DNA of 58,568 nt, from contig CAKZQS010000032.1 in the NCBI GenBank assembly GCA_937141935.1, forward strand, positions 1 to 58,568. Direction: 5' to 3'. The stretch is from an uncultured Ectothiorhodospiraceae bacterium (GTDB taxonomy: Bacteria > Pseudomonadota > Gammaproteobacteria > Nevskiales > Oceanococcaceae). The first letter of the stretch is position 1, and the number at the start of each line of letters is the position of its first letter. Shown piece by piece: positions 3,887 through 44,073 of the stretch. The translations under genes were made by a program, and so were the position numbers. The notes below the pieces were generated by a model, which was not told the DNA's origin, ran no database searches, and saw only the letters and a list, made by a program, of their open reading frames with translations.

Positions 3887-4825
3887 TCAGCCGCCGCGCA
3901 GCTGCACGTTTTCGATGGCCAGCGCCATCGATTCGCAATACAGCCGCATCAGCTCCTGGTCGCGCGGGTTCAGCGGCGCCTGGCCCTCGGCCCGCAGCAG
4001 GATGCTGGCCTGGTGGCTGGTGTCGGTGGTGACCAGATAGGCGCCGCTGCGCGTCCGGCTGATGCCGCTGTCGGGGCGCTCGCGCAGCGCCGCGCAGAAC
4101 TCCTCCGCCAGCTCGGGCGGCAGCGCCTCGCTGACGGTGCCGGCCTGCGGCACCTCCGGCGTGGCCGCAAGCACGCGCAAATCCTCGCAGTGCGTGCCCA
4201 TCGCCATCGTGCAGACGATGCGGTCAATGTTCAGCAGGGCGCCGAGTTGCTCGATGGCCGCGCCGGCCAGTGCCTGCACCGTGCTCATCGAGGACAGCTC
4301 GCGCGACAGCATGATGATGCGCGCCAGGGCCTCGCGGGCGCGCTGCAGCGCCGCCAGGTCGCGGTAGCTGCAGATCATCGTGTAGGCGGTGGAATACAGC
4401 CGCGTGGCGGTCAGCTCGGCCTTTTCCTTGTAGCCGTTGATGTCGTATTCGGTGATGACCCGGCGTTCGGGTGCCTGCCCCGGCTGGCCGGTACGCAGGA
4501 TGATGCGCATCAGCGCATCGCCATGCTCGCGGCGTATCCAGCGGGCCAGCTCCAGCCCGGCGTGTTCGGTCTCCATGACCACATCGAGCAGGCACATCGC
4601 GATATCCGGCTCGGCGCTGATCAGCGTGCGGGCCTCCGCGGCCGAATAGGCATTCAAAAAGCGCAGCGGGCGGCCATCGACCTCCAGGTCGGCCAGCGCG
4701 TGCTTGGTCACGGTATGGATGCCGGCCTCGTCGTCCACCACCAGCACGGTCCAGGGCGAGGCTGCGCTGCGCCGCGCGGCGGAGCCGGGCTCCTCGGCGG
4801 CAAATTCCATCAGCTCGTCGCTCAT
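3887..4825 (-). CDS. Response regulator with DUF3369 output domain
   Basis: 312 residues. Residues ~27-150 are a receiver domain: acidic pair Asp31/Asp32 in VLVVDDEAG, phospho-acceptor Asp81 in CLLDVVME, Thr112 in ILRTGQ and Lys133 in NGYKEKAEL. Residues ~155-310 are DUF3369, a sensor-like GAF-related domain found after receivers; there is no DNA-binding, GGDEF or EAL output. The start at 4825 overlaps the kinase stop as ATGA, so the pair is translationally coupled. It is the last gene of the operon that begins with the TonB receptor at 9142 and is the obvious partner of the kinase. How it passes the signal on is unknown; it may act by protein contact, with the nearby SpoIIE phosphatase as a candidate partner (inference). 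Confidence 0.9.
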   Translation of the reverse strand: MSDELMEFAAEEPGSAARRSAASPWTVLVVDDEAGIHTVTKHALADLEVDGRPLRFLNAYSAAEARTLISAEPDIAMCLLDVVMETEHAGLELARWIRREHGDALMRIILRTGQPGQAPERRVITEYDINGYKEKAELTATRLYSTAYTMICSYRDLAALQRAREALARIIMLSRELSSMSTVQALAGAAIEQLGALLNIDRIVCTMAMGTHCEDLRVLAATPEVPQAGTVSEALPPELAEEFCAALRERPDSGISRTRSGAYLVTTDTSHQASILLRAEGQAPLNPRDQELMRLYCESMALAIENVQLRGG

Positions 4826-6474
4826 TGCTGGCCCTCGGCACGCGGGCCCGCGTCCGTGGCGGGTAGCGTGATGCAAAAGGTGGTTCCCTGGCCCGGCTGG
4901 CTGGTGACGCGGATGCGGCCGCCCAGCTTGTGGGTGACCAGATTGTAGACCAGGTGCAGCCCCAGCCCGCTGCCGCCGGCGCCGCGCCGCGTCGTGAAGA
5001 AGGGCTCGAAAATGCGCCGTCGCACGGCCGCCGACATGCCACGGCCGTTGTCGGATACCGTGATTTCCACCGCGCCGTCGGCCTCGCGCGCGAGGCCCAG
5101 GCGGATCTGCCCGGCGTCGCCCTCGGCGAAGGCATGGTGCTGCGCGTTGATGATCAGGTTGGTGACGACCTGCGCCAGCACGCCCGGGTAGGTGTGCAGC
5201 GTGATGCCCGCCGTCAGCTCGGTGCGCAGCTCCTGCGCGCTCTTTTTCATCTGCGGCTGCAGGCTGACAGCCACCTCATCGAGGTAGCGGCCCAGGTCGA
5301 CGTCCTGCAGCGCATCGGCGGTCTGGTCCACGGCCACGCGCTTGAAGCTCGCCACCAGCTCGGAGGCCCGCTGCAGGTGGCTGAGAATCACCGCGGCCAG
5401 CTCCCCGGCCGTGGCCAGCTTGTCCTCCAGCGTCGAGCGCTTGAGCTGCCCGGAGGCGATCAAGCCCTGCAGCGTCTCGACATCGTCCTTGAGCTGCGAG
5501 GCGGCGGTGACGCTGATGCCCACCGGGTTGTTGACCTCGTGGGCCACGCCAGCGACCAGCCCGCCCAGCGAGGCCATCTTCTCGGCCTCGATCAGCTGCT
5601 CCTGGGTGCGCTGCACCTCCTCCAGGGCGCTTTGGGCCTTTTGCTGCGCGGCCCGCAGGCTCTCGACGGCCTGGGCGCGCTCGATGATTTCGTCCTCGAG
5701 CCGGTGGTTGGTATACAGCAGCGCCTGCTCGCGGCTTTCGATCTGCTGCAGCATGGCATTGAAGTCCTCGACCAGCGCATGCACCTCGTCGCGCTGTGGC
5801 GGCTCCGCAGCGCGCAGCGTGAAGTCCTCGGATTCGGACACCTTGCGGGCCACCTGGGCCAGGTCGAGCATTGGCTGCACCGTGCGGCTCTGCAGCACGC
5901 GGGCCGCCCACAAGGCCAGCAACAAGCCCAGGCCCACCGCGGTCGCGCCGAGCAGCAGTCGCCAGCCCAGCACCCGCCACAGGTCGTCGAGCTGGCGGCC
6001 CAGCAACAGCGTGCCCACCGTCTGCTGGCCGACGACGACCGGGGTCACCGCGGTCCACTGGGCCCAGCGCTTGTCGACCCGCGTGGGCCCGCGGCTGGCG
6101 GTCGTTTCCGGCGGGCAAGGAGGGGCGGTGGGGCGGGCGAAGTCGGCCAGTAGCTCGGTGCGACCCTGCTCGTGCAGGTACAGGCAGGCCCGTTCGATCT
6201 GCGGCAGCAGGGCGAGATTGGTCAGCGTGTCGCGCGCCACATAGGGGTCGCGAAACGCGACAGCCGCGCTGACGCTGGCAGCGGTCAGCTGGGCCAGGCT
6301 CTGCAGCTGCTGCGATAGTTCGCGTCGGGCGCTCAGCGCATCGAAGCTCAGCAGCAACACGGTGATAGCCGACAGGCCCAGCACCGCGTACAGGATCAGC
6401 AGCTGGCGCAGCCGCGCGGCCACCGACTGCCGCGGCGCGGGCGCCCCGGCAGGCACCGCTGCCGGCGGGCTCAT
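4822..6474 (-). CDS. Membrane sensor histidine kinase (HAMP, HisKA, HATPase)
   Basis: 550 residues. A transmembrane segment at about 25-45, a periplasmic region of ~120 residues resembling CHASE8-type domains, a second membrane segment near 170-190, HAMP at ~195-250, a coiled coil, then the H-box VAGVAHEVNNPVG with His312. The ATPase domain shows the N box NLIINAQHHAF, G1 VSDNGRGM and G2 GGSGLGLHLV, so it should be active. HEVNNP is the variant typical of the HPK4-like kinases. It overlaps YfiR at its start (ATGA, 6471-6474) and the receiver-DUF3369 gene at its end. The periplasmic region is the natural place to read the state of the YfiR-like protein, much as YfiR controls YfiN in Pseudomonas; this is inference from gene order. 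Confidence 0.92.
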   Translation of the reverse strand: MSPPAAVPAGAPAPRQSVAARLRQLLILYAVLGLSAITVLLLSFDALSARRELSQQLQSLAQLTAASVSAAVAFRDPYVARDTLTNLALLPQIERACLYLHEQGRTELLADFARPTAPPCPPETTASRGPTRVDKRWAQWTAVTPVVVGQQTVGTLLLGRQLDDLWRVLGWRLLLGATAVGLGLLLALWAARVLQSRTVQPMLDLAQVARKVSESEDFTLRAAEPPQRDEVHALVEDFNAMLQQIESREQALLYTNHRLEDEIIERAQAVESLRAAQQKAQSALEEVQRTQEQLIEAEKMASLGGLVAGVAHEVNNPVGISVTAASQLKDDVETLQGLIASGQLKRSTLEDKLATAGELAAVILSHLQRASELVASFKRVAVDQTADALQDVDLGRYLDEVAVSLQPQMKKSAQELRTELTAGITLHTYPGVLAQVVTNLIINAQHHAFAEGDAGQIRLGLAREADGAVEITVSDNGRGMSAAVRRRIFEPFFTTRRGAGGSGLGLHLVYNLVTHKLGGRIRVTSQPGQGTTFCITLPATDAGPRAEGQQ

Positions 6475-7061
6475 CGCCGCACCTCCGCAGCCACGCCGAG
6501 CAGGCGCGCGTCCACATCCAGCCCCTGCGCCCGCACCGCGGGCAGGTTGACGACGAAGCGAATCCGGTCGGCGCGTTCGACAAAGCCGATCATGCCGCCG
6601 TCGGCCGTGAAGTCAGACCCCTCGCCGACGGTCAGCGCGCCCACCAGCGGGATCATGCGCCCGGCCTGCAGGTAGACCAGGTCGCAGTCGGCATCGACCG
6701 GCACCACATCGGCCGGAAATTCGCGCACATCCACCACCCGGCCTTGGACGCGCTGGCCCTGCAGAGCGCCGCTGGCGTGGCCGCGGAAGGCGACATCGGC
6801 GACCAGGCAGGCCCGCAGCGCGCGGCTCGCGTCGGCCGCCGGCCAGCGGGTGAACTTGGCGAAATTCAGCAGGTAGGCGGTACGGATGCGGCTGGCCGCG
6901 TCGGTGTCCGCGGCCGACGCCGGGGCCGGCAGCGCCAGCGCCGCGGTACAGGCGAGCAGGCCGCAAATCGATGCGCGCCGCAGTCCCGTGCCTCGGCTCC
7001 GCCGTGTCGCCGCTAGTGGCGGCCGGCCGGCCGCGGCGAGCGGCGCGCTCACCATTGCCAC
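6471..7061 (-). CDS. YfiR-family (DUF4154) periplasmic protein
   Basis: 196 residues with an Arg-rich N-terminal signal region and a hydrophobic core ending in PAPASA near residue 50, so exported to the periplasm. The mature part begins AASRIRTAYLLNFAKFTRWP, the hallmark of the YfiR/DUF4154 fold (KAAFLYNFAKFVEWP in relatives), and has the usual end (RIRFVVNLPAVRAQGLDVDA, then LLGVAAEV). In Pseudomonas YfiR inhibits the diguanylate cyclase YfiN; here the downstream partner is a histidine kinase instead. The start overlaps the end of the TonB receptor gene by 13 bases; an alternative ATG two codons in (7055) would shorten this overlap. Confidence 0.88.
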   Translation of the reverse strand: MAMVSAPLAAAGRPPLAATRRSRGTGLRRASICGLLACTAALALPAPASAADTDAASRIRTAYLLNFAKFTRWPAADASRALRACLVADVAFRGHASGALQGQRVQGRVVDVREFPADVVPVDADCDLVYLQAGRMIPLVGALTVGEGSDFTADGGMIGFVERADRIRFVVNLPAVRAQGLDVDARLLGVAAEVRR

Positions 7062-9142
7062 TGCAGGCCGATCTGGCCGCTGCGCTCGCGCAGGGCGCGC
7101 ACGGCCGAGGTGGCGTATTCCAGGTGCCGGTCCTCGAGGAGGTTGCGGCCCGAGAGCATCAGCAGCAGACCGTTGCGCAGCGGCCAGCGCAGGTGCAGAT
7201 CCAGCTCTGTATAGGCGGGTACATCCAGCGCCGGCAGCGCATCGACGTAACGCAGGCCGGCGTAGCTTTCGATCGGGCCGATGCGGCCGAAGGCCTGCAG
7301 CGCCGCCTGGTGCTCGGGATCCTGCTCCTCGCGGCTGCGCGCCTCCGATTGGTCCTGCGGCGCGCGCGCCTCGATGTCCAGTTGCAGCCAGCTGTAGCTG
7401 GCCTGCAGGCGCAGCCGCGACCAGGGGTTCCAGCGCAGCACAAGCTCGGCGCCATGGCTGCGGCCGTCGAAGCGGTTGGCGATGCGGGCATCGCCCTCGC
7501 CATCGTCGTCCACACCACGCAGGTCACGGTAGCGGTTGGCATAGAGCGCGAGGTCCACGGCGACGGCGTTGGCAAAGGTGTGCCGCCAGCCCAGCTCCAA
7601 CGCGTCCAGCGTTTCCGCGTCGAAGTCCTCGCTGCCGACGAGGTCGCGGCTCTCGCCCTCGTTCAGAAAGATGTCGCAGTAGAAACCGGGCGCCCCGGCC
7701 TGGCGGCACTGCTCGCGGTCACGGGGCGCGCCGTCGGGGAAGAAGGTGCCAAAGAAGACGTCGCAGAACAGGGTGCCGCCGCCGGCCTCGCGGCAGTCCT
7801 GCGCGGTGAAGGGGCCGTTGCCGCCGGTGGCCGGGTCGGTCTGCCCACTGAGGTCGGCGTTGACGCCCTCGGCCTGGGCCTGGCCGCCGGCGCCGATGCG
7901 GCGGCTGTCGCGGTCCAGGCGGTTCGGCGTGCGCACCGCGTGCGAGAGCGCCGCCCAGAGGGTGGTCCATTCGCTGGGATGCCAGGCGCCGCGCAGCGAG
8001 GGTTGCAGTTCGAATCCGGTGTAGTCGTTGTGCTCGAACTTCGAGCCCAGCGTCAGTTGCCAGTCGGGCGCCGGCTGCCAGCTGCCCTGGCCGAACAGGC
8101 TGTAGGTCGTGAGGTCACGCGCGGCGGGCCAGAACTGCAGCGTGTCGGTCTGTTTGATGTCGTCGCGACTGTATTTGACGCCCGCGCCCCACAGCGTTTG
8201 CAGCGCTCCCCACTGGGCCGGGCGCTGCGCCTCGGCATGCAGCGTCAGGCGATCCTCGCCAAAGCCCTCGTCGAGTGCGCGGCGCGTGCCGTCGACATAG
8301 CCCAGCCATTGCGTCCGGTTGGCGGCCTCGTAGCGCCCCAGCAGGAACAGGCCCTGAGTCAGCAGTTCGCCACGGTCGGTGCGCTTCTGGCCCTCATAGG
8401 CCTCGCTGTTGATCGTCAGCCGCCCCTGATCCAGTCGCATGCCGATGCGCTGGTGCTGCCAGGGCGCCTCCACCGGCTCGCCGTCGGCGTCGACGAAGGG
8501 CTCCATGCGCAGGCCATGGCCATAGAGCCGCAGTCCGCCGTTCGACAGACGGAAGCCCTGGCGGGCCTCGGCGCGGTAGGTCTGGCTGCTGCCCAGGCGC
8601 AATTGCGCATGCCCGCCGAGGGTCTGCGCCGCGGAGCGGGTCACGATATTGAGCACGCCGTTCACGGCATTCGCGCCCCACAGCGCCGCGCCGGGCCCGC
8701 GAATCAGCTCGATGCGCTCGATATCCTCCAGCGCGATGTCCTGCTGATCCCAGAACACGCCGGAGAACAGCGGCGAATACAGGCTGCGCCCGTCGCGCAG
8801 CACTTCCAGCTTGTCCGCGAGCGGGCTGTTGAAGCCCCGGGCGCTGATCGCCCAGCTGCTGTTGTTGAGCCGCGCGACGTGAATTCCGGGCAGCAGCCGC
8901 AGTGCCTCGGGCAGGGTTTGTGCGCCGGAGCGGCGGATGTCCTCGCCGGTGAGCACGGCGATTGCCGCCGCGGCCCGGCCGACCGGCTCGGCGCGCCGGG
9001 AGACGCTGGTCACCGACAGCTGCGACAGCTCCTCCAGCGACAGCTCCAGCAGCTGGTCCTGGGCCATCACGGCGGGTGTCAGCAGCGGCAGGCCCGCGGC
9101 CAGAAACAGGGCGCGGACCAGGCCGCGGGTTTGCTGATACAT
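7049..9142 (-). CDS. TonB-dependent receptor of the YfiR-linked type
   Basis: 697 residues: signal peptide ending PAVMAQ near residue 28, then LLELSLEELSQLSVTSVSRR, a TonB-box-like start seen in receptors that travel with DUF4154 genes. The plug (about 45-165) contains RGFNSPLADKLEVLRDGRSL and RIELIRGPGAALWGANAVNG; the remainder is a beta-barrel ending in the aromatic residue W (IGLQWQW). An extracellular stretch around 7665-7800 holds a doubled Cys motif, CREAGGGTLFCDVF and CRQAGAPGFYCDIF. It is the first gene of the signalling operon and probably either takes up the ligand or senses it. The ligand is unknown; no B12, haem or siderophore marker is visible. Confidence 0.92.
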   Translation of the reverse strand: MYQQTRGLVRALFLAAGLPLLTPAVMAQDQLLELSLEELSQLSVTSVSRRAEPVGRAAAAIAVLTGEDIRRSGAQTLPEALRLLPGIHVARLNNSSWAISARGFNSPLADKLEVLRDGRSLYSPLFSGVFWDQQDIALEDIERIELIRGPGAALWGANAVNGVLNIVTRSAAQTLGGHAQLRLGSSQTYRAEARQGFRLSNGGLRLYGHGLRMEPFVDADGEPVEAPWQHQRIGMRLDQGRLTINSEAYEGQKRTDRGELLTQGLFLLGRYEAANRTQWLGYVDGTRRALDEGFGEDRLTLHAEAQRPAQWGALQTLWGAGVKYSRDDIKQTDTLQFWPAARDLTTYSLFGQGSWQPAPDWQLTLGSKFEHNDYTGFELQPSLRGAWHPSEWTTLWAALSHAVRTPNRLDRDSRRIGAGGQAQAEGVNADLSGQTDPATGGNGPFTAQDCREAGGGTLFCDVFFGTFFPDGAPRDREQCRQAGAPGFYCDIFLNEGESRDLVGSEDFDAETLDALELGWRHTFANAVAVDLALYANRYRDLRGVDDDGEGDARIANRFDGRSHGAELVLRWNPWSRLRLQASYSWLQLDIEARAPQDQSEARSREEQDPEHQAALQAFGRIGPIESYAGLRYVDALPALDVPAYTELDLHLRWPLRNGLLLMLSGRNLLEDRHLEYATSAVRALRERSGQIGLQWQW

Positions 9143-17822: not shown

Positions 17823-19367
17823 ATGAGCGCATTCGCATCCGTCACCCGCCGCGGCGCCCACATGGCGCTGCTGCTGGCCACCTCCGTGGGCGCGACGCTG
17901 GCAGGCGTCGCCCAGGCCCAGGAGCCCATCGACCCGGAGACACAGGCGGCCATCATCAACGAGCCGAACTTCGGTTCGCCCTTTGATAACCGCTTTTACA
18001 TCGGCGCCTCCGGCGGCTTTGCCTTTGCCGACGACGAGGACTTCGACACCGGCGCCGGTGGCTCGCTGTTCTTCGGCAAGACGTTGCTGCCGAACCTGTC
18101 GCTGCAGGTCGAAGGCTTTTACAGCCTGCTCGAGGTCGCCAACGTCGCCAACACCAGCCAGAGCTCGGACTATGAGCGCTATGGCGTCGGCGCGGCCTTG
18201 CACTACTTCGTGCCGCTGCAGGACTTCAAGCTGGGCCCGACCTTTGGCGCCGCCTTCCGCACCATCGAGTTCCTGGGTGCCGAGGAGGATGGCCTGGGCG
18301 TGCATGCCGGCCTGGCCGGCGTGCTGGCCATCGGAGACTACCTCGACCTGACGCTGGACCTGCGCTACGTGCTGGACTTCACCGATGGTGAGGGCGCGAT
18401 TGCGGACACCACCTTCTACACCTGGAACGCGCTGGCCGGTTTGCGGGTCAAGCTGGGCCAGTGGCCGCCGGATGCGCCGGACAGCGACGGCGACGGCGTG
18501 CCCGACTATCGCGACGACTGCCCGAACACGCCCTATGGCGCGCTCGTGGATGCCCGCGGCTGCGGCATCGACAGCGATGGCGATGGGGTGCCGGATCACA
18601 GCGACCGCTGCCCGAACACGCCGCAGGGCGTGCCGGTCGACGCCTTTGGCTGCCCGCAGGACAGCGACGGCGACGGCGTGCCCGACATCCTCGACGAGTG
18701 CCCGGACACGCCGGAAGGCACGCCGGTGGATGCCCGCGGCTGCCCGCTGGATACCGACCAGGACGGCGTGATCAACAGCAAGGATCTGTGCCCGAACACG
18801 CCCTTTGGTGCCGAAGTCGACATCAACGGCTGCCCCTTCGACACGGATCAGGACGGCGTGCCCGACTACCTGGACCAGTGCCCGAACACGCCCTTCGGCA
18901 CCCCGGTGAACGAGAAGGGCTGCGCGCTGGATTCGGATGGCGACGGCGTGCCCGACGTCATCGACGCCTGCCCGAACACCTACCCGGGTCTCGCGGTTGA
19001 CGAGGTCGGCTGCCCGCTCAAGGCGCAGGTGCTGGTGCTGAACAATGTGCACTTCGAGTTCGACCGCGCCGACCTGCTGCCCGACTCGCGGGAGCTGCTG
19101 TCCCGGGTGGCCAAGTCGCTGCTGGACCAGCCGCAGGTCAAGATCGAGGTCGCCGGCCACACCGACAGCATTGGCTCGGACTCCTACAACGAGGCGCTGT
19201 CGGACAAGCGGGCCAACTCGGTGCGCAGCTACCTGATCAGTCAGGGTGTGGCGGCCGGCAGCATCTACGCCAAGGGTTATGGCGAGCGGGTGCCGGTGGC
19301 CAGCAACGCGACCGATGAGGGTCGGGCGCTGAATCGCCGGGTGGAGATCCACCTGCTCGAGGACTGA
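17823..19367 (+). CDS. OmpA-family protein with six TSP3 repeats
   Basis: 514 residues: signal peptide ending GVAQAQ near residue 33, an eight-stranded beta-barrel (about 55-215, starting FYIGASGGFAFAD), then six thrombospondin type-3 repeats, then a C-terminal OmpA domain that binds peptidoglycan. Each repeat follows D-S-D-G-D-G-V-P-D-x4-CPNTP, a calcium-binding loop. The OmpA domain shows NNVHFEFDRADLLPDS, GHTDSIGSDSYNEALSDKRA and GYGERVPVASN with the usual NRRVEI motif. AGGGGA lies nine bases before the start. It follows the Cys-rich lipoprotein gene. Role: anchoring the outer membrane to the wall, with the calcium-stiffened repeats spanning the periplasm. Confidence 0.93.
   Translation: MSAFASVTRRGAHMALLLATSVGATLAGVAQAQEPIDPETQAAIINEPNFGSPFDNRFYIGASGGFAFADDEDFDTGAGGSLFFGKTLLPNLSLQVEGFYSLLEVANVANTSQSSDYERYGVGAALHYFVPLQDFKLGPTFGAAFRTIEFLGAEEDGLGVHAGLAGVLAIGDYLDLTLDLRYVLDFTDGEGAIADTTFYTWNALAGLRVKLGQWPPDAPDSDGDGVPDYRDDCPNTPYGALVDARGCGIDSDGDGVPDHSDRCPNTPQGVPVDAFGCPQDSDGDGVPDILDECPDTPEGTPVDARGCPLDTDQDGVINSKDLCPNTPFGAEVDINGCPFDTDQDGVPDYLDQCPNTPFGTPVNEKGCALDSDGDGVPDVIDACPNTYPGLAVDEVGCPLKAQVLVLNNVHFEFDRADLLPDSRELLSRVAKSLLDQPQVKIEVAGHTDSIGSDSYNEALSDKRANSVRSYLISQGVAAGSIYAKGYGERVPVASNATDEGRALNRRVEIHLLED
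18480..19019 (+). repeat. Six exact-length 90-bp coding repeats (TSP3)
   Basis: Six units of exactly 90 bp (30 residues each), all in frame inside the OmpA-family gene. Units share GACGGCGTG in the calcium loop and CCCGAACACGCC in most CPNTP motifs. Length is invariant while the sequence has diverged at many third positions, so the array is old but has the means to expand or shrink by recombination. Confidence 0.93.
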
Positions 19368-29422: not shown

Positions 29423-30793
29423 ATGACGACGATGATTCGCGCTGCGCGCCTGCGCAGCCTGCCGCTGGCCTGTGCCAGCCTGATCCTGCTGGCCGCCTGC
29501 GGCAGCGAAGACAGCACCACCCAGGCGCCCTCGCGGGCGACCGAGGGCCCCAACGCGCTGCAGGCCGCGCTGCTGGCCAGCGGTCTGGGCACGCAGCAGG
29601 CCGCGCCGCCGCAAAGCCTGGGCTTCGACCGCCGGCCCGAGCTGGCCGCCCGCGATGGCGTGCTGGAGCGCGAGCTGGTCGTGGACACGCTGACCGGCCG
29701 GCCCGGCCTGAGCCTGCCGCTGACGCTGCGCAGCCACAGCGGTACGCGCATTCAGGCGCTGTACCTGCAGGTCGGTGGGGCCAGCGGCGCGCGCCGGCTG
29801 GACCTGGCCGAGGCCGAGGCCGCCGAGCTGGCGCTGGACCTGGAACTGGAAGTGCAGGCCGCCAGCGTGGCCCCCGAGGGCTTCTGCTTCGACCTTGCGC
29901 TGGAGGATGCGCTGGCTCGCGTGTCGGCCCCGCTGCGCCAATGCGCGCTGGGTCAGGCGGGCGCGCGCAGCGTCGTGGCGCCGGCGGCCTTCAGCGCCCT
30001 GGCGGACAGCGAGCTGCGGCTCGCGCCGCTGCGGCTGGACCCGGGCCTGGCCGCACGCTGGACCGTGCTTGGCGTGGAAGGCACGCCGACCCCCGAGTTC
30101 AGCGATGACGGCGACGCCGTGCGCTTCACGCCGGCCGCCGGTCGCTACCTGCTGCGTGTCGAGGCCGGCGGCCAGTCCGACCTGAGCCGCCTGACGGTAC
30201 GGGCGCAGGCGCCGCTGCAGGCCGAAGCCGGCGCAGACCGCCGCGCCGATGCGGGCGAAACGCTGACCTTGTGGGGCGATGCCAGCGCGGCGGCGGACAG
30301 CGTGCAGTTCGCCTGGACGCGGGAGGGCCAGCCGGCCGGCGACACCCGCGACCTGACGATCAACCCGCAGGCCGCCGACATCGGCCGCAGCCTGGTCTAC
30401 ACGCTGACGGTGACGCCCATCGCGGGCGGCGAGAGCGGCAGCGACAGCGTCACCGTGCAGGTGCGCGACCCGGCCAACCTGCCGCCCACCGCCGATGCGG
30501 GGCGCGACCAGACGGCGGGCGAGGGCGCCCGTGTGCAGCTGGACGGGCGCGGCAGCCGCGACCTGGACAGCGACACGCTCGATTACGCCTGGGCGCAGGT
30601 GATCCCGCCCGGCGAACCGACCCCGCGCGTGGAGCTCGAGAATGCCGACACGGCGCAGCCCAGCTTCGTGGCGCCGACGGTCGATAGCACCCTGGTGCTG
30701 GAGTTCGAGCTGACGGTTCGCGACGCCAACGGCAACGCCGACAGCGACCGCATGCAGGTCACCGTCGAAAACGACATCGAAGGCGGTAACTGA
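29423..30793 (+). CDS. Lipoprotein with PKD/REJ-type Ig-like domains
   Basis: 456 residues. Lipoprotein signal with lipobox LAAC (Cys26); GGGGAGAA precedes the start. The N-terminal ~180 residues are unrecognised, with two Cys (CFDL, RQCAL). From ~245 come two Ig-like domains: the second begins NLPPTADAGRDQTAGEGARV, then LDGRGSRDLDSDTLDYAWAQ, a PKD/REJ pattern; VLEFELTVRDANGNADSDRM closes it. Secreted or outer-membrane, perhaps binding a polysaccharide or protein. It stands 190 bases upstream of the SH3b-TonB receptor on the same strand; whether they share a transcript is not evident. Confidence 0.8.
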   Translation: MTTMIRAARLRSLPLACASLILLAACGSEDSTTQAPSRATEGPNALQAALLASGLGTQQAAPPQSLGFDRRPELAARDGVLERELVVDTLTGRPGLSLPLTLRSHSGTRIQALYLQVGGASGARRLDLAEAEAAELALDLELEVQAASVAPEGFCFDLALEDALARVSAPLRQCALGQAGARSVVAPAAFSALADSELRLAPLRLDPGLAARWTVLGVEGTPTPEFSDDGDAVRFTPAAGRYLLRVEAGGQSDLSRLTVRAQAPLQAEAGADRRADAGETLTLWGDASAAADSVQFAWTREGQPAGDTRDLTINPQAADIGRSLVYTLTVTPIAGGESGSDSVTVQVRDPANLPPTADAGRDQTAGEGARVQLDGRGSRDLDSDTLDYAWAQVIPPGEPTPRVELENADTAQPSFVAPTVDSTLVLEFELTVRDANGNADSDRMQVTVENDIEGGN

Positions 30794-30983: not shown

Positions 30984-33935
30984 ATGAGCTATCAGGGTCG
31001 CGGACCATCACGTGGGTCCGCCATGACTATTGCCCTTGCCGCCACAATTGGCGCAACGGGTATGGCGAGTGCGGACGAAGGGACGACGAAAATCCGCATC
31101 AATATGCGGGAGGCGCCGGACCTGAACACGCGGATCGTCACCACGCTGGAGCGTGGTGCCACCGTCGAGGTTCTCGGCTACGACGGCGATTACGCGATGA
31201 TTCGCGACAGCGAAGGCAACGTCGGCTATCTGAAGTCGAAGTACCTGAATGTCGAATCGGGTGCGGTGGCCGAGTCGGCCCCGGCGCCGATGGCGGCTGC
31301 TCCGGCCGCACCGGCCACGCCGGCCGAGCCGGCCAGCCAGCAGCCCGCTGCGCCGCCGGAAATCCCCGAACTGCAGCGCGCCGAGCCCTCCTCGGCCGAT
31401 TCGGTCTTTGAGCCGGATGCCGAGCCGCGCGACGCCGATGCCGTTCGCCTGGACAAGATCTCGGTCACCGGTTCGCGCCTGAAGCGCTCCGACATCGAGG
31501 GTGCGCTGCCGGTCGCCGTGATCAGCCGTGAGGACATCGACCTCTCCGGCAACATCACCGTCGGTGACATCCTGCGCAACACCACCTTCAACACCTTTGG
31601 CTCCTTCCGCCAGCAGTCGGGCAGCTCCGCCCAGTCGCTGGTGTCGGTCAGCCTGCGGGGCCTGGGCCCCGAGCGCACGCTGGTGCTGATCGACGGCCGT
31701 CGCGCGCCGAAGGCGCCCTTCGCGCCGACCGCGCAGGACATGAACGCGATCCCGCTGGCGGCCATCGAGCGCATCGAGATCCTGTCCGACGGTGCTTCCG
31801 CCGTGTACGGCTCGGATGCGCTCGGCGGCGTGGTCAACCTGATCATGCGCAAGGACTTCGAGGGCTGGCAGGTCTCCTATCAGGAGTCCGACCCCTCCCG
31901 CGAAGGCGGCGACATCAAGCAGGGCCAGTTGGTTGTGGGCTCGAGCGGCGAGCGCGGCCACATCGTCATGGGCGCGTCCTTCCACAGCAAGGACATCGTC
32001 TTTGCCCGGGACAGCCTGTTCAATACGCCCGGCCAGAGCTTCTTCTCGAACAACTACACGCCGATCGAGGGCCCGAACGAGGGCGATCTGGACTTCCTGC
32101 CCGGCGGCTGTAATGACGACGCCAGCGTCAACACCGGCCCCGGCTACAGCCTGATCCCCTACGTCGACGCCGACGGCAACCCGCTGTCGCCCTCCGGCCA
32201 GCGTTGCGCCTTCGACTTCAACCTGGTCGCGGCGGACGAGGCGGCGGTCGACAACCAGTCGGCCTTTGCCCGTGGCACCTACGAGATCAATGATGACTGG
32301 TTCATCAACAGCATGGCCTCGATCTCGAATGCCGGCTCCTTCGGCCGTTATGCGCCGACGCCGGGCTTCTTCACCGTCTCTGGCGAGGTGCTGTCCGACA
32401 ACACCAACGGCCAGGTGACCGACGACTCCTATGTGTACCACCGCTTCGCGGCGGTCGGCCCGCGGGACACGGAAACCGAAGCCAACGTCTACGACATCGT
32501 GGGTGAACTGCAAGGCCGCATCGGCGAGATCGACCTCGCCGTCGGTGCCCGTTTCAACGAGTACAAGTACATCGAGCTGGGTCGCAACTACGTGGTGCGT
32601 CCGCTGGCCGAGCAGGCCGCGGCCGATGGCTCCTACAACTTCGTCTCGCCGCTGGACAACGACCCGTCGGTGCTCAAGGGCATCGCCGCGACGATCAACC
32701 GCGAGTCGATCTGGGAGACCCAGGAGTACTTCGTCGACGCCTCGATGCCGATCTTCGAGATGGGCGGCGGCTTCGCCCAGCTGGCTGTCGGCGCCGAGAC
32801 GCGGACCGAGGTCTATTCCGACACCTATGACTCGCTGCAGGAAGCCGGTGTGATCCTGGGCAGTGCCGGCAACTCGGCCGGCGGTGCGCGGGATGTCACC
32901 TCCTTCTACGCCGAGACGCTGTTCCCGGTCACGATGGATCTGGAGCTGACCGCGGCCGTGCGCTACGACGACTACTCCGACTACGGGGATGACGTGTCGC
33001 CGAAGGTATCGGCCCGCTGGAAGGCGGCGGATTCGCTGACGGTTCGGGCCTCCTACGGCCAGGGCTTCCGCGCGCCGACGCTGGACATCCTGACCCAGCA
33101 GCCGACCTTCTCGGCCGAGTCGATCAACAACGACGAGCAGACCTGTATCGCCACCGGCGGGGTGTTCTCCGACGGCGCGTGCAGCACCTCCTCGCAGGTC
33201 GACACGATCTTCCTCGCCAACCCGCTGCTGGATTCGGAGAAGTCCGATCAGTTCAGCATCGGCTTCGCGGCGGACGTGACCGAGTGGATGGACCTGACGC
33301 TCGACTACTACAACATCACCATCGAGGACCTGATCCTCGAGTTCGACCCGGATGAGATCCTGGACCGCCTGGCGGCCGGCGACCCGATTCCGGCCGGCCT
33401 CGGGATCACCCGCCTGCCCAACCAGGGCAACCGCATCGACGAGGTGACTGCAGGCTTCGCCAACTCCGGCGACCTGGAGACCTCCGGCATCGATCTGAGC
33501 ATCGATATGCGCTTCAACCTGGGCGAGTGGGGCCGGATCAACAGCTACCTCAAGGGCGTTTACGTCCTCGACTACACCGAGAGCGGTGGTCGTAACGAGG
33601 TGGGCGATCCGGAGTTCCCGGAAATGCGTTGGAACATGAACAACGCGTGGTCGCTGGGCGCCCTGGGCGCGGCCTGGAACATCAACTTCATTGGTGACCA
33701 GGCGGCCGAGGTGTCCGGTGGCGGTGTGCAGAGCGGGCATATCCCGACCTACATCACCCACGACATCCAGGTGAACTACACCTTCGATTTCGGCACCACG
33801 ATCACCGTGGGCGCAGTGAACGCCTTCGACAAGGAGCCCGATCCGCGCTCCGCTGCCGATGGCCGCAACTACGACTTCGATCTGTACGACCAGTACGGCC
33901 GTACGCCTTACTTCAAGCTGACGCAGCGCTTCTGA
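30984..33935 (+). CDS. TonB-dependent receptor with N-terminal SH3b domain
   Basis: 983 residues. Signal peptide ends GMASA near residue 30. Residues 35-90 are a bacterial SH3 domain: IRINMREAPDLNTRIVTTL, then GATVEVLGYDGDYAMIR and GNVGYLKSKYL. A Pro/Ala-rich linker (91-150) follows, then a TonB-box-like LDKISVTGSRLKRSDIEG at ~157 and the plug (RGLGPERTLVLIDGRRAP, then ERIEILSDGASAVYGSDALG, and NLIMRKDF). The barrel ends with Phe (YFKLTQRF). The receptor half resembles the large Xanthomonadales/Caulobacter-type group. GGGAGACGC precedes the start. SH3b domains usually bind peptidoglycan or peptides and are not normally found in TonB receptors; the domain would lie in the periplasm. Ligand unknown. 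Confidence 0.93.
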   Translation: MSYQGRGPSRGSAMTIALAATIGATGMASADEGTTKIRINMREAPDLNTRIVTTLERGATVEVLGYDGDYAMIRDSEGNVGYLKSKYLNVESGAVAESAPAPMAAAPAAPATPAEPASQQPAAPPEIPELQRAEPSSADSVFEPDAEPRDADAVRLDKISVTGSRLKRSDIEGALPVAVISREDIDLSGNITVGDILRNTTFNTFGSFRQQSGSSAQSLVSVSLRGLGPERTLVLIDGRRAPKAPFAPTAQDMNAIPLAAIERIEILSDGASAVYGSDALGGVVNLIMRKDFEGWQVSYQESDPSREGGDIKQGQLVVGSSGERGHIVMGASFHSKDIVFARDSLFNTPGQSFFSNNYTPIEGPNEGDLDFLPGGCNDDASVNTGPGYSLIPYVDADGNPLSPSGQRCAFDFNLVAADEAAVDNQSAFARGTYEINDDWFINSMASISNAGSFGRYAPTPGFFTVSGEVLSDNTNGQVTDDSYVYHRFAAVGPRDTETEANVYDIVGELQGRIGEIDLAVGARFNEYKYIELGRNYVVRPLAEQAAADGSYNFVSPLDNDPSVLKGIAATINRESIWETQEYFVDASMPIFEMGGGFAQLAVGAETRTEVYSDTYDSLQEAGVILGSAGNSAGGARDVTSFYAETLFPVTMDLELTAAVRYDDYSDYGDDVSPKVSARWKAADSLTVRASYGQGFRAPTLDILTQQPTFSAESINNDEQTCIATGGVFSDGACSTSSQVDTIFLANPLLDSEKSDQFSIGFAADVTEWMDLTLDYYNITIEDLILEFDPDEILDRLAAGDPIPAGLGITRLPNQGNRIDEVTAGFANSGDLETSGIDLSIDMRFNLGEWGRINSYLKGVYVLDYTESGGRNEVGDPEFPEMRWNMNNAWSLGALGAAWNINFIGDQAAEVSGGGVQSGHIPTYITHDIQVNYTFDFGTTITVGAVNAFDKEPDPRSAADGRNYDFDLYDQYGRTPYFKLTQRF

Positions 33936-34014: not shown

Positions 34015-34986
34015 GTGACGACGGACAGCAAGGCGCAGCGACGCGCCGCCTGGCAGGACTACTGGACCCGGGGGGCGCTGCAGTCCAGCGGCGGCGCGCC
34101 CGGCTACATCGGCGCGATCCGCGACTACTGGCTGGGCGCGTTAGCGCCGCTGCCGGCCGACAGCCGGGTGCTGAACCTGGGCTGCGGCAATGGCGCGCTG
34201 GAGCGTTTGTTTCGCGATGTCCCGGGTCCGCGCTTCGTCAGCGTGGATCTGGCGGAGGTCGGCCCCGAGTGGGTGGATGGACTGAGCCCGCAGGCGCGAG
34301 CCCGTTTTGAATTTCATGGCGGCACGGACATGGAGGCGCTGCCGCTGGAGGCGGCCAGCGTCGACGCGGTCGTGTCGCAATATGGGCTGGAATATGCCCG
34401 CCCCGAGCCGGCCTGGGCGGAGATCCGCCGGGTCGCTCGGCCCGGCGCCCGGCTGGCGCTGCTGCTGCACCACGCCGATTCGCTGCTGGCGCGCAGCGCC
34501 GCGGGCGAGGCCGAGCAGGGGCGGTACCTGCTGCAGGAGTCGGCGCTGCTGGAGGCCGCCGCCGCGCTGGTGCCCTTCCTGGCCATGGCCGCCAACCCGG
34601 CCGGGCGGGAGCGCCTGGGCCGCGACCCGCAGGCCGCGCGCCTGCGTGAACGCTACAACGAGGCGCAGGCCGCAGCGCGCGCCTGGCAAGGCGGGCAGGG
34701 GGCCGGCGGTTTGCTGGAGGACGTGGCCACCGGCGTGCACCAGTCGCTGGGCGCCATCGGGCGGCTGGGCCGCGATGCGGTCGAGCGTCACCTCGCCGTT
34801 GTGCGCGAGCGCATCGAGCACGCCGTGCTGCGCCAGCGCGAGCTGACGGCCGTGGCCCTGGACGAGGCCGCCTTCGCCGCGCTGTGCGCGCAGGTCGAAT
34901 CCTGGGGCGGGCGCGTCGACAGGCGCGAGCCGCTGTACGAAGGCGACTCGCTGCTCGGCTGGGTGCTCGAAGGGGCGCTGCCATGA
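34015..34986 (+). CDS. Class I SAM-dependent methyltransferase
   Basis: 323 residues from a GTG preceded by GAAGAG. Motif I is RVLNLGCGNGALERL (about residues 50-64), the acidic residue binding the ribose is VSVDLAEVG, and motif II/III region reads DAVVSQYGLEYARPEPAW. The following helical half (Arg/Ala/Glu-rich) has no catalytic marker and ends EPLYEGDSLLGWVLEGALP. The substrate is unknown. The stop overlaps the sulfotransferase start (ATGA 34983-34986), so the two are translated together, right downstream of the SH3b-TonB receptor. Confidence 0.88.
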   Translation: MTTDSKAQRRAAWQDYWTRGALQSSGGAPGYIGAIRDYWLGALAPLPADSRVLNLGCGNGALERLFRDVPGPRFVSVDLAEVGPEWVDGLSPQARARFEFHGGTDMEALPLEAASVDAVVSQYGLEYARPEPAWAEIRRVARPGARLALLLHHADSLLARSAAGEAEQGRYLLQESALLEAAAALVPFLAMAANPAGRERLGRDPQAARLRERYNEAQAAARAWQGGQGAGGLLEDVATGVHQSLGAIGRLGRDAVERHLAVVRERIEHAVLRQRELTAVALDEAAFAALCAQVESWGGRVDRREPLYEGDSLLGWVLEGALP

Positions 34987-36458
34987 GCGCGGACAAGGTC
35001 GCGCGGCTTTGGGCGGGGGCGCAGCAGGCGCTGGCGCAGGGGCCGCGGCAACAGGCCATCTGGTGCCTGGAGCAGATCATCCAGCTCGACCCGGCCCATC
35101 GCGAGGCGCACCGGCGCCTGGCCGAACTGTTGCGCGCGGATGGCGATGCCGAGCGCGCCGCCGCGCTGTGTGTGCGGCTGCTGCGCAGCCATCCCGACGA
35201 CGCGCAGGCGCTGACGACGCTGGGCGAGCTGCTGGAGGATCTGGGCGAGTTCGAGCAGGCGCGCGAGGTGTACACTCGCGCCACCCGCCAGCGGGGCGAT
35301 CAGTCCTTCGCGCTGGGCCAGCTGCTGGCGCTGGACCGGGGCCAGCTGCCGCCCGAGGCCATTGCCCGGGCGCAAGCCCTGCTGGATGCCGGGGGCAGCC
35401 CGCGGGCGCGGGCGCTGATTGCCTACGGCCTGGGCAAGCTGCACGACCGCCGCGGTGAGCACGCGCAGGCGCTGCGCTGCTGGGAGCAGGCCAACGCGGC
35501 GCGGCGCGCGCAGTGCGGCCCGCTGGACCGGCAGGCCCTGGCGGCGCGCGTCGCGCGCACGCGCGAGGCGTTTTCGGCCGCGCACTACGCCCGGCAAAAG
35601 GGCTGGATGGCGCGCCCGGAGCAACCGATCTTTATCGTCGGCATGCCGCGCAGCGGCACCACGCTGATCGAGCAGGTCTTGTCGCGGCACCCGCAGGTGC
35701 GCGCATTGGGCGAATCGCCGGCGATGCCGGCGGTGGCCGATCGCATGCCGGCGCTGGCCGCCTCGACGCTGCGCTGGCCCGAGGCCGTGGCCGAGCTGAC
35801 CCAGCAGGCCGTTTATGAGGGCGGCAAGGCCTACATGCAGCTCTCCGGGGCCCCCACGGCGCAGCGCTGGACCGACAAGGCACCGCTAAACATCTTCCAC
35901 GTCGGGCTGATCCGCGCGCTGTTCCCGCACGCCCGCGTGCTGCTGCTGCTGCGCGACCCGCGCGATGTGCTGCTGTCGATCTACGAGCAGAACTTCGCGC
36001 TGCACCAGACCTTTGCCACCGACTGGGAGGATCTGGCCTTTTATTACGCCCGCTTCGCCGAGCTCTGCGCGCACTGGCAGGCGCAGGGGCTGATCGACGC
36101 CGTGCTGGGCTATGAGGGCTTTGTGGCCGCGCCGCGGGCGGGCGTGGATGCGCTGCTCGCCGCCACCGGCCTGCCGCCGGAGCCGCGCTGCCACCGGCCG
36201 GAGGCCGCCGAGCGCGCCGTGGCCACGCCCAGCCGCTGGCAGGTGCGCCAGCCCATCAACACCTCGGCCCGGGGCCGCTGGCAGCGCTATGGCGAAGGGT
36301 TGCAGCCCTTGCTGGAAGCGCTGCAGCGCGAGGGCGTCGATGCCGACGCCGTGTTGGCGCGGGCCCAGCAGCCCCTGCACACAGGCGCTGGTGCCGGGGC
36401 TGGGGCTGGGGCCGGGGCTGGCTCGGGGGCCGAATCCGGGGCGGACGCGGGCGCCTAG
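34983..36458 (+). CDS. TPR-containing sulfotransferase
   Basis: 491 residues. Residues 1-200 form about five TPR helix pairs (QQAIWCLEQIIQLDPAHREA, DAQALTTLGELLEDLGEFEQ). From 215 on is a sulfotransferase: the PAPS 5'-phosphate loop IFIVGMPRSGTTLIEQVLSR, the region WTDKAPLNIFHVGLI and the 3'-phosphate site LLLLRDPRDVLLSIYEQNF. Transfers sulfate from PAPS to an acceptor; TPRs usually bind protein or peptide partners. The last ~20 residues are a Gly-Ala repeat. The end overlaps the pgl stop on the other strand inside CCTAGG. In Xanthomonadales such TPR sulfotransferases often stand beside TonB receptors, as here; the acceptor is not known. Confidence 0.93.
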   Translation: MSADKVARLWAGAQQALAQGPRQQAIWCLEQIIQLDPAHREAHRRLAELLRADGDAERAAALCVRLLRSHPDDAQALTTLGELLEDLGEFEQAREVYTRATRQRGDQSFALGQLLALDRGQLPPEAIARAQALLDAGGSPRARALIAYGLGKLHDRRGEHAQALRCWEQANAARRAQCGPLDRQALAARVARTREAFSAAHYARQKGWMARPEQPIFIVGMPRSGTTLIEQVLSRHPQVRALGESPAMPAVADRMPALAASTLRWPEAVAELTQQAVYEGGKAYMQLSGAPTAQRWTDKAPLNIFHVGLIRALFPHARVLLLLRDPRDVLLSIYEQNFALHQTFATDWEDLAFYYARFAELCAHWQAQGLIDAVLGYEGFVAAPRAGVDALLAATGLPPEPRCHRPEAAERAVATPSRWQVRQPINTSARGRWQRYGEGLQPLLEALQREGVDADAVLARAQQPLHTGAGAGAGAGAGAGSGAESGADAGA

Positions 36459-37142
36459 GGCGCCCAGTAGCAGTGCAGGCCGGCGAGCAGCGCCCGCAGC
36501 GGCATCGCTGCCACGGCCTCGGGCTCGGCCTGCACGCGCTGCCAGGTGGCGCGCTTGGCGGCGCCTTCGATATGTAGCGCGCGCCAGCGCGCCTGGCCGA
36601 GCAGGCGCGGCGTCAGCGTGATGCGCGGCGTGGGCTGGCTGGCCGGGCGCATCGCGGCGCAGAGCCGCGGGCTGTCCAGTGCCGCCGGCAGCTCCGGGGC
36701 ATCGGGGAACAGCGAGGCGGTGTGGCCGTCCTCGCCCAGCCCCAGCACCAGCGCGGCGGGTGGGCCGGGCAGCGCCAGCAGGCGCTGTTCCACCTCGGCC
36801 TGTCCGGCATGCGGCGTCGGGGCGCTGGTGGTCAGGGACACGGCCCGGGCCCGCGCGGCGGCGCCCTGCAGCAGCTCGCGGCGAATCAGGCCGATATTGC
36901 TGGCCGGGTCGTCTTCGGGCACCCAGCGCTCGTCGGCCGGCACCACGACGACCCGTGACCAGTCCAGCGTGCTGCCGCGCAGCGCATGGAAAAAGCGCGT
37001 CGGCGTGCGCCCGCCACTGACCACCAGCACCGCCTGCTCCTGGCCCCCCAGCGCGACCTCCAGCGCGGTGGCCACGTCGGCCGCCAGCGCGGCGGCCAGG
37101 CTCAGCGGGTCGGGGTAGGGGCGCCAGTGCGTCGCTTCGGGC

Positions 37143-37162
<20 letters not shown>
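36455..37162 (-). CDS. pgl: 6-phosphogluconolactonase
   Basis: 235 residues from the ATG at 37162. Hydrolyses 6-phosphogluconolactone to 6-phosphogluconate. Family motifs: AVLVVSGGRTPTRFFHAL, VVVPADERWVPEDDPASNIG and VLGLGEDGHTASLFPDAPEL (the SugarP-isomerase-type fold). Residues upstream of 37162 are Pro/Arg-rich and not family-like. It overlaps zwf by 20 bases and ends with its stop overlapping the convergent sulfotransferase stop. Part of the Entner-Doudoroff set. Confidence 0.95.
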
Positions 37163-38621
<1,459 letters not shown>

Positions 38622-38639
38622 CGTCGTCGCACCTCCAGG

Positions 38640-38664
38640 CCACGGCCCGTGACGTAGGCCGTGG
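38640..38664. promoter_or_regulatory. Inverted repeat between zwf and edd
   Basis: CCACGGCC (38640-38647) and GGCCGTGG (38657-38664) are perfect reverse complements with a 9-base spacer, in the 108-bp divergent gap. Centre about 30 bases before zwf. The known HexR site (TGTAATTAAATTACA) is not present, so if this is the operator a different regulator acts. Confidence 0.4.
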
Positions 38665-38729
38665 GGGCATTGCATGACCGGGGCCGCAACACGGTAGCAT
38701 CCTGACTCGCTTCGGCAAGGCACGCGTCG

Positions 38730-40603
<1,874 letters not shown>

Positions 40604-40607
<4 letters not shown>

Positions 40608-41304
40608 CCCTGGACGACATCCTGACCGCCGCCCCGGTGTTGCCGGTGGTCACCATCGGCGCGGCCGAGCAGGCCGTCCCACTGGCCCGGGCCTTGCTGG
40701 CCGGGGGGCTGCCGGCGTTGGAGATCACGCTGCGCACACCCTGCGCGTTGGAGGCGGTGCGCCGCATCCGCGCCGAGGTCGAGGGCTGCCAGGTGGGCGT
40801 GGGCACCGTGCGCAGCGATGAGGACCTGGACCGGGCCGCGCAGGCCGGCGCGCGCTTCGCCGTGTCGCCCGGCCTGCCGCCGGGCCTGGGCCAGGGCCCG
40901 CTGCCGCTGCCGCTGCTGCCAGGGGTGATGACGCCCACCGAGGCCATGGCCGCCGCCGAGCGCGGCTACACGCGACTGAAGCTGTTCCCGGCGCGCGAGG
41001 CCGGCGGCGCGGCGTTGCTGCAGGCGCTGGCCGGCCCGCTGCCGGAGCTGCGCTTTTGCCCCACCGGGGGCCTGGGCGAGGACGACCTGCCGCGCTTTCT
41101 GGCCCTGCCCAATGTGCTGTGTATCGGCGGCAGCTGGCTGGCCCCCGCCGCCGCGCTGGAGCGCGGCGAGTGGGCCCAGATCGAGGCGCGCGCCCGGCGT
41201 GCCGTCGCCATTGCCGCCGGCGCGCCGGCGGCCCCCGCAACGCCCGGCGGCCCCTCGGCGGCCGGGGAAGAAGACCCTGGTGCCGCCATTACGGAGCCCC
41301 GCCC

Positions 41305-41308
<4 letters not shown>
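40604..41308 (+). CDS. eda: KDPG aldolase
   Basis: 234 residues. Cleaves 2-keto-3-deoxy-6-phosphogluconate into pyruvate and glyceraldehyde-3-phosphate. Motifs: [35 protein letters not shown] with the catalytic Glu and the Arg, GVGTVRS, and [15 protein letters not shown] with the Schiff-base Lys; [10 protein letters not shown] binds phosphate. The last ~30 residues (Ala/Pro/Gly-rich) exceed the usual length and are probably a disordered tail. Overlaps edd and ppc by four bases each. Confidence 0.97.

Positions 41309-44073
<2,765 letters not shown>

Follow-up and report, generated by a model that had tools for sequence, protein, structure and literature searches.

The 58,568-nucleotide stretch of DNA analysed here (the window; contig CAKZQS010000032.1 of assembly GCA_937141935.1, from an uncultured Ectothiorhodospiraceae bacterium of the family Oceanococcaceae) encodes a TonB-dependent receptor with a bacterial SH3 (SH3b) domain at its N-terminus. 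Comparison with related genomes showed that, at each of two chromosomal sites, one type of this SH3b head stands in front of receptor bodies that descend from different lines. We favour the reading, with a probability of about 0.5, that the head serves outer-membrane barrels as an exchangeable anchor on the periplasmic side, most likely by tethering them to peptidoglycan, the binding itself being something that we infer. Throughout, G-numbers label the compared genomes (G000 is the genome of the window) and L-numbers the compared sequences, and the body is the receptor minus its head, with body identities given for the plug region and then for two barrel parts.

The receptor gene (positions 30984-33935, + strand) is a single open reading frame (ORF) of 983 residues, whose last residue codon ends at 33932 and whose start codon is preceded by AGGGAGA. 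Residues 1-30 (30984-31073) read by eye as a signal peptide ending in GATGMASA and, as the first-pass annotation of the sequence had proposed, the SH3b head lies directly behind it, at residues 34-90 (31083-31253) according to Pfam, a head profile and AlphaFold2. The core of the Pfam SH3_3 match (PF08239) spans residues 39-88 (31098-31247) with 35.5 bits (E 1.1e-8, curated cut-off 27), rising to 41.7 bits when approximately residues 30-93 were scanned alone, and is overlapped by a weaker SH3_4 match under its own cut-off; the window head scores 119.7 bits against head profile A1, of which it is itself a member. The order of parts that the same annotation had described behind the head also held. 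A Pro/Ala-rich linker of 64 residues (residues 91-154, 31254-31445, 50% Pro+Ala) leads to a likely TonB box, DKISV (residues 157-161, 31452-31466), a plug domain (PF07715, residues 175-283, 31506-31832; 74.7 bits, cut-off 23.9) and a beta-barrel (PF00593, best Pfam stretch at residues 589-946, 32748-33821; 133.5 bits, cut-off 27), all on the + strand. DKISV was picked out by eye from a motif that we take to mark the TonB box, and it ends at V161 of a nearly invariant VTGS (161-164) in a 17-row alignment.

In place of the usual partners of this receptor class, the head was expected to be something other than an STN or CarboxypepD_reg-type domain, and neither STN (PF07660) nor CarboxypepD_reg-type (PF13715) was found in the window receptor by Pfam at E <= 1; the OmpA domain PF00691 was also absent from its Pfam matches. 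Neither Pfam nor NCBIfam holds such a head as an already named extension of this class. A frameshift joining two genes was ruled out, because the same fusion occurs, as one such gene per genome, in all four family genomes (G000, G001, G002 and G003); the window frame runs without a stop codon and the parts stand in the same order in the three other genomes. This analysis therefore confirmed that the window gene encodes a TonB-dependent receptor with an N-terminal SH3b head on a Pro/Ala linker.

The suggested structure prediction was carried out with AlphaFold2 on the 17-row alignment, only four rows of which include the SH3 part. The model features a receptor barrel and plug, five short strands at residues 37-84 where the predicted local distance difference test (pLDDT) score is only about 40-72, and low confidence over most of residues 89-176 (pLDDT <50), a stretch that takes in the linker. 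Foldseek matched this model to TonB-dependent receptors in the PDB, with PirA (5fr8, E 7e-35) as the best match. When the head profile was compared with the PDB at E <= 0.1, six chains were found, comprising cell-wall hydrolases, surface or toxin-like proteins and one SH3b protein (best 2kq8, E 8e-8). The 22 PDB chains matched by the whole receptor all align from residue 140 on, so that no solved receptor has this head by sequence.

Site 1, shared by the window and G001, which belong to one genus, holds the receptor between a dgt/gltB block and an S8 peptidase block. The flanking proteins are 85% (gltB) and 75% (dgt) identical between the two genomes, these names being assigned by eye and by HD domains, and the receptor heads are 60% identical against 48, 22 and 29% for the bodies. 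At site 2, in G002 and G003 (Oceanococcus sp. isolate BWSM_70, a metagenome assembly of the family Oceanococcaceae), both flanks are common, at 96% and 87% DNA identity, and the heads are 90% identical against 43, 22 and 28% for the bodies. No DNA match was found between the G001 and G002 regions, so the two sites are distinct. The DNA of G002 and G003 differs by one mismatch in 540 bases, from 480 before the first ATG to base 60 of the frame, after which identity falls to 76% over 270 bases. As near-identity ends at the signal-peptide region, an exchange point lies there, and in this pair head and body were swapped together with the head type kept. The G003 contig comes from a metagenome assembly and could be strain-chimeric, but the argument does not rely on the G002/G003 pair alone. 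A local shufflon with silent copies was considered but is not supported: the four loci show only short, partly matching repeats, and each genome contains a single head of this kind.

The four SH3b-headed bodies took up four separate positions in a quick tree of 36 bodies, whose starred branches force four changes. Such differing bodies among relatives had not been anticipated in the first-pass annotation. The approximately unbiased (AU) test rejected all four bodies as one clade (p 9e-70) as well as the pairs of window with G001 (2.7e-4) and G002 with G003 (3.5e-5). Receptors without an SH3b head are the firm neighbours (99, starred) of the window and G002 bodies; the G001 and G003 bodies are on long branches, so their exact places in the tree are unsure. 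The window body is 54-56% identical over its length to receptors of G006, G013, G016, G055, G048 and G024 (54-58% in the comparison with those of G006, G016, G055 and G048), compared with 43% to the nearest SH3b-headed receptor (G002). Pfam found no SH3 match in the G006, G016, G055 and G048 receptors, while the G013 and G024 relatives begin at contig ends, where a head may have been cut off.

Other proteins that combine SH3b, plug and barrel were sought, and the three found are all in the bacterial family of the window, where the receptor occurs once per genome in four of four genomes. These genomes contain 19, 18, 29 and 22 plug matches (88 in total, one of them under the cut-off), of which 84 lack an SH3b head. 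The receptor head is the sole SH3_3 match in the window's genome, and SH3_3 proteins of other kinds are found in three of the four family genomes. A profile built from the four receptor heads was searched against 85 genomes of the order at E <= 1e-7, giving 25 matches in 24 genomes; frames of >1000 residues came from exactly the four family genomes, one each. Seven of the remaining 21 matches were inspected and consisted of six OmpA-like barrel proteins and one coiled-coil protein; the other 14 lie in frames of 203 to 511 residues. In the class sample, 34 of 369 genomes matched at E <= 1e-8, with receptor-length frames only in G000 and G001, and six other matches inspected by eye all combine SH3b, a coiled coil and a membrane anchor. 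In the phylum sample, a ten-row profile matched 7 of 398 genomes at E <= 1e-9, with a long frame in G000 alone, and the general SH3_3 model matched 331 of the 398. Six frames of >700 residues among the SH3_3 matches listed for the phylum (E to 3.5e-11) contain no receptor, by eye; the window's own match (E 9.6e-10) is weaker than that limit, so fusions with weaker or other SH3b types may exist elsewhere. Full Pfam scans of ten SH3-less receptors of the order returned plug and barrel but no SH3 or STN family. Among plasmids, 1286 records matched, but in none did the match extend to 80% of SH3b plus plug, and a DNA search with the whole gene matched 42 records, none of them over >80% of the gene. 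Within the limits of these searches, receptors outside the family showed no such head in the order, class and phylum samples. A G048 match in a 1062-residue frame was rejected as a receptor fusion, as it features two SH3b stretches and, by eye, no plug. Separately, L094 (6753-13562), from a proteobacterium, encodes a 2270-residue frame with many SH3b repeats and an end region that by eye is presumably CotH-kinase-like, and L090 holds a shorter version of this protein.

The next best head matches in the order (51-75 bits) are the six barrel proteins, from five genomes of another family. Their layout is a signal peptide, SH3b, a Pro/Ala-rich linker and ∼180 further residues. SH3_3 is above its cut-off in all five that were scanned with Pfam, and neither a plug nor the OmpA domain PF00691 is among the matches of these five. 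An AlphaFold2 model of one barrel protein shows eight long strands behind an SH3b domain (pLDDT 74-85) and a disordered linker, and Foldseek related it to OmpA, Ail, OmpW, NspA and PagL (E 1e-5 to 7e-4; TM 0.5-0.7 when normalised to these short barrels). The receptor and barrel heads group together in a tree of 17 SH3b domains, in a clade apart from the coiled-coil proteins (95/92); in another family of the order, heads of this clade are thus followed by a predicted OmpA-like barrel. Both barrel kinds were found together in none of the nine genomes with an inspected example among the order matches at E <= 1e-7.

Since one head type is retained in front of different receptors, which probably take up different substrates, the head would need a partner common to all of these receptors, most simply peptidoglycan. 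Bacterial SH3 domains are described as wall-binding or wall-targeting domains in the available sections of PMC7860986, and TagV, an SH3b-containing outer-membrane lipoprotein, is proposed to bind peptidoglycan in those of PMC7614798 and PMC10433429; by analogy with these proteins and with the OmpA-like layout, the wall is the simplest candidate. On this reading the head, extending into the periplasm from the plug side of the barrel, would fasten the receptor to the wall in much the way that the periplasmic domain of OmpA fastens OmpA, and the linkers of the four receptors, at 49-64 residues, could reach from barrel to wall. This would keep the TonB box close to the wall, the place of action of ExbD and TonB, and the partner of the head would be tied neither to the substrate nor to TonB. 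With somewhat less confidence, a little short of even odds, we further propose that SH3b plus Pro/Ala linker is a mobile, general-purpose anchor in the order, which fastens unrelated barrels (TonB-dependent receptors in one family, OmpA-like barrels in another) to the wall, and that at its chromosomal sites the receptor behind a kept head type is swapped over time, so that a cell could alter its uptake without altering how the receptor is anchored.

Several observations weigh against this anchor. The comparison draws on just four receptors, two of whose bodies (G001 and G003) are long-branched. From one site to the other, head identity is only 47-50%, and a comparison of the window with G002 gives more identity for the plug (62%) than for the head (47%), so that a constant head is true within a site but not across the family. 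The four receptor heads also do not form one clade, as those of the window and G001 group with the barrel heads (99/96) and not with those of G002 and G003. Two fusions are therefore possible, in a tree of ∼57 residues per row for which the program warns of long branches meeting; the pattern is suggestive either of one module that moved between barrel types or of fusion more than once. The OmpA-like barrel was modelled from six rows, with a predicted template modelling score (pTM) of 0.49, and the OMP_b-brl family lies below its cut-off (15.8-19.7 versus 28.7 bits) in three of the five barrel proteins scanned. Finally, according to the available part of PMC7614798, other SH3b domains required a conserved tryptophan in the ligand site to bind peptidoglycan or protein; none of the four receptor heads contains a tryptophan, and one of the six barrel heads does. 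The wall tether that the first-pass annotation had offered as one role for the head therefore gains indirect support from the related heads on OmpA-like barrels and from the TagV precedent and loses from the missing tryptophan, the last two pulling in opposite directions. A sensor of wall peptides, also put forward in that annotation, would be a further candidate role.

The occurrence of related heads on two barrel types would also suit an aid to assembly or quality control, in which the head helps periplasmic transit, Bam-mediated insertion or barrel stability and has no wall ligand. Removal of the unrelated N-terminal extension of a SusC protein harmed growth, and biogenesis is considered one possible reason in the sections of PMC7782687 available, but 84 of the 88 plug matches in the four family genomes do without a head, and we regard this alternative as unlikely. 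We are a shade more sceptical of a TonB clamp, another role proposed in the initial annotation, by which the SH3 fold would grip either the Pro-rich stretch of TonB in the periplasm or the Pro/Ala linker of its own receptor, thereby raising the local concentration of TonB or gating the TonB box. The head does stand just ahead of the TonB box, as that proposal requires, and the linkers of the four receptors are 50-63% Pro+Ala. However, heads of the same clade occur on OmpA-like barrels with no plug by Pfam, and as these barrels have no TonB box, a clamp specific to TonB loses some ground. We know of no rule of Pro-rich peptide binding for bacterial SH3 domains. The available text of PMC7614798 describes such binding for eukaryotic SH3 domains.

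It is also improbable, in our estimation, that the head is an evolutionary leftover with no function, carried along by recombination at the common 5' end. The exchange point of G002 and G003 at the front end of the gene is what such hitchhiking would produce, but the first 110 codons of these two genes contain 38 silent differences against 16 residue changes, and the head, at 90% identity, is their best conserved protein segment. Least credible of all is a signalling head that would inform a partner in the inner membrane of substrate binding or of the state of the wall, as STN does in FecA and FoxA from the same position in the protein, given that no STN match was found, that no sigma or anti-sigma family turned up in the 14 other proteins of the window covered by the Pfam scan (some 20 more predicted genes lie outside it), and that a substrate-specific signal fits poorly with the presence of one head type on different receptors.

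The genes around the receptor bear on the origin of its body. A methyltransferase-domain gene follows the receptor (34015-34986, + strand), and its ORF is overlapped by that of a tetratricopeptide repeat (TPR)-sulfotransferase gene with an uncertain start (34884-36458, + strand); both were assigned by Pfam and have homologues in relatives. Homologues of the methyltransferase (32-37% identity) follow the SH3-less relative in four of the four genomes inspected here (G006, G016, G048 and G055), although that of G006 has no Pfam match at 1e-5, and homologues of the TPR-sulfotransferase (37-41%) are found in the same four. Because the window keeps these neighbours of SH3-less relatives, its receptor body belongs to a receptor cluster that other families have without SH3b; neither gene was found in the 18-kb region of G001. 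In G006 (L095, 7203-17311), the receptor, methyltransferase homologue and TPR-sulfotransferase precede genes for a 2-oxoglutarate (2OG)-Fe(II) oxygenase, DUF3450, two ExbB-type proteins, ExbD and TonB, a cluster that would supply the receptor with modification enzymes and with an energising system of its own. No such body cluster is shown for G002, as the TPR-transglutaminase lipoprotein-like gene beside its SH3b-receptor (L033, 5656-6837) has no match in nine other regions compared, that of G003 included.

Elsewhere around the two site 1 receptors, a PKD-domain lipoprotein-like gene (29423-30793) that was not found in the G001 region lies between dgt and the window receptor, and an S8 peptidase gene directly follows the G001 receptor. 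Just downstream in the window (36458-44073) are genes for a 6-phosphogluconolactonase-type protein, an Edd/IlvD-type dehydratase and phosphoenolpyruvate carboxylase. A second TonB-dependent receptor (7052-9142, - strand) has no SH3b among its matches and opens a group of genes (3887-9142, - strand) that continues downstream with a small protein of exported type, a kinase-type protein with CHASE8 and HAMP (4825-6474) and a protein that by eye is receiver-domain-like (3887-4876); this receptor looks like one coupled to a signalling system. The window also encodes an OmpA-domain protein with thrombospondin type 3 repeats (17823-19367).

The N-terminal extensions described for TonB receptors in the available parts of PMC7782687 and PMC11658791 are STN and the SusC extension, and an SH3b-headed receptor was not found described in those portions of the open-licence literature on SH3 domains and TonB receptors that were available. 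A head that is kept while the receptor is swapped means that the role of the extension is separable from that of the receptor. It also allows a test of whether attachment of a receptor to the wall makes a difference to TonB-driven transport, a question that arises because ExbD itself binds peptidoglycan, as stated in the accessible part of PMC11658791.

Among known systems, the SusC-type receptors with a CarboxypepD_reg-like extension (PF13715; PMC7782687, in the sections available) also carry a small all-beta domain of unsettled role before the TonB box, but that extension is Ig-like, whereas the window head has an SH3 fold and was found, among the samples searched, in one gammaproteobacterial family only. 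TagV of Serratia marcescens is likewise a periplasmic SH3b domain held at the outer membrane and a proposed peptidoglycan binder; it is a lipoprotein rather than a barrel and, according to the available text of PMC7614798, carries the conserved ligand-site tryptophan that is absent from the receptor heads. The SH3b proteins of TIGR04211, with a coiled coil and a membrane anchor, also have SH3_3 soon after the signal peptide, and TIGR04211 is the best SH3 model for the window head in NCBIfam (38.6 bits, not reaching the cut-off of 65), but coiled-coil proteins of this type have no barrel and the head clade is separate from them (95/92). The STN receptors FecA, FpvA and FoxA likewise carry an additional domain in the periplasm, which comes after the signal peptide and before the TonB box, plug and barrel; the window head differs in being SH3_3 rather than STN, in the lack of sigma or anti-sigma genes among the 14 neighbours scanned and in not being bound to one receptor type. 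OmpA and OprF are outer-membrane barrels anchored to the wall by a periplasmic domain, and the receptor resembles them, in layout only, as an outer-membrane barrel with a flexible linker and a periplasmic domain that may grip the wall. Their OmpA domain is C-terminal, whereas the SH3b head is N-terminal and its wall binding a proposal; if that proposal is true, the head would correspond, at the N-terminus, to the OmpA anchor and could serve as a portable part when outer-membrane proteins are studied in laboratory strains.

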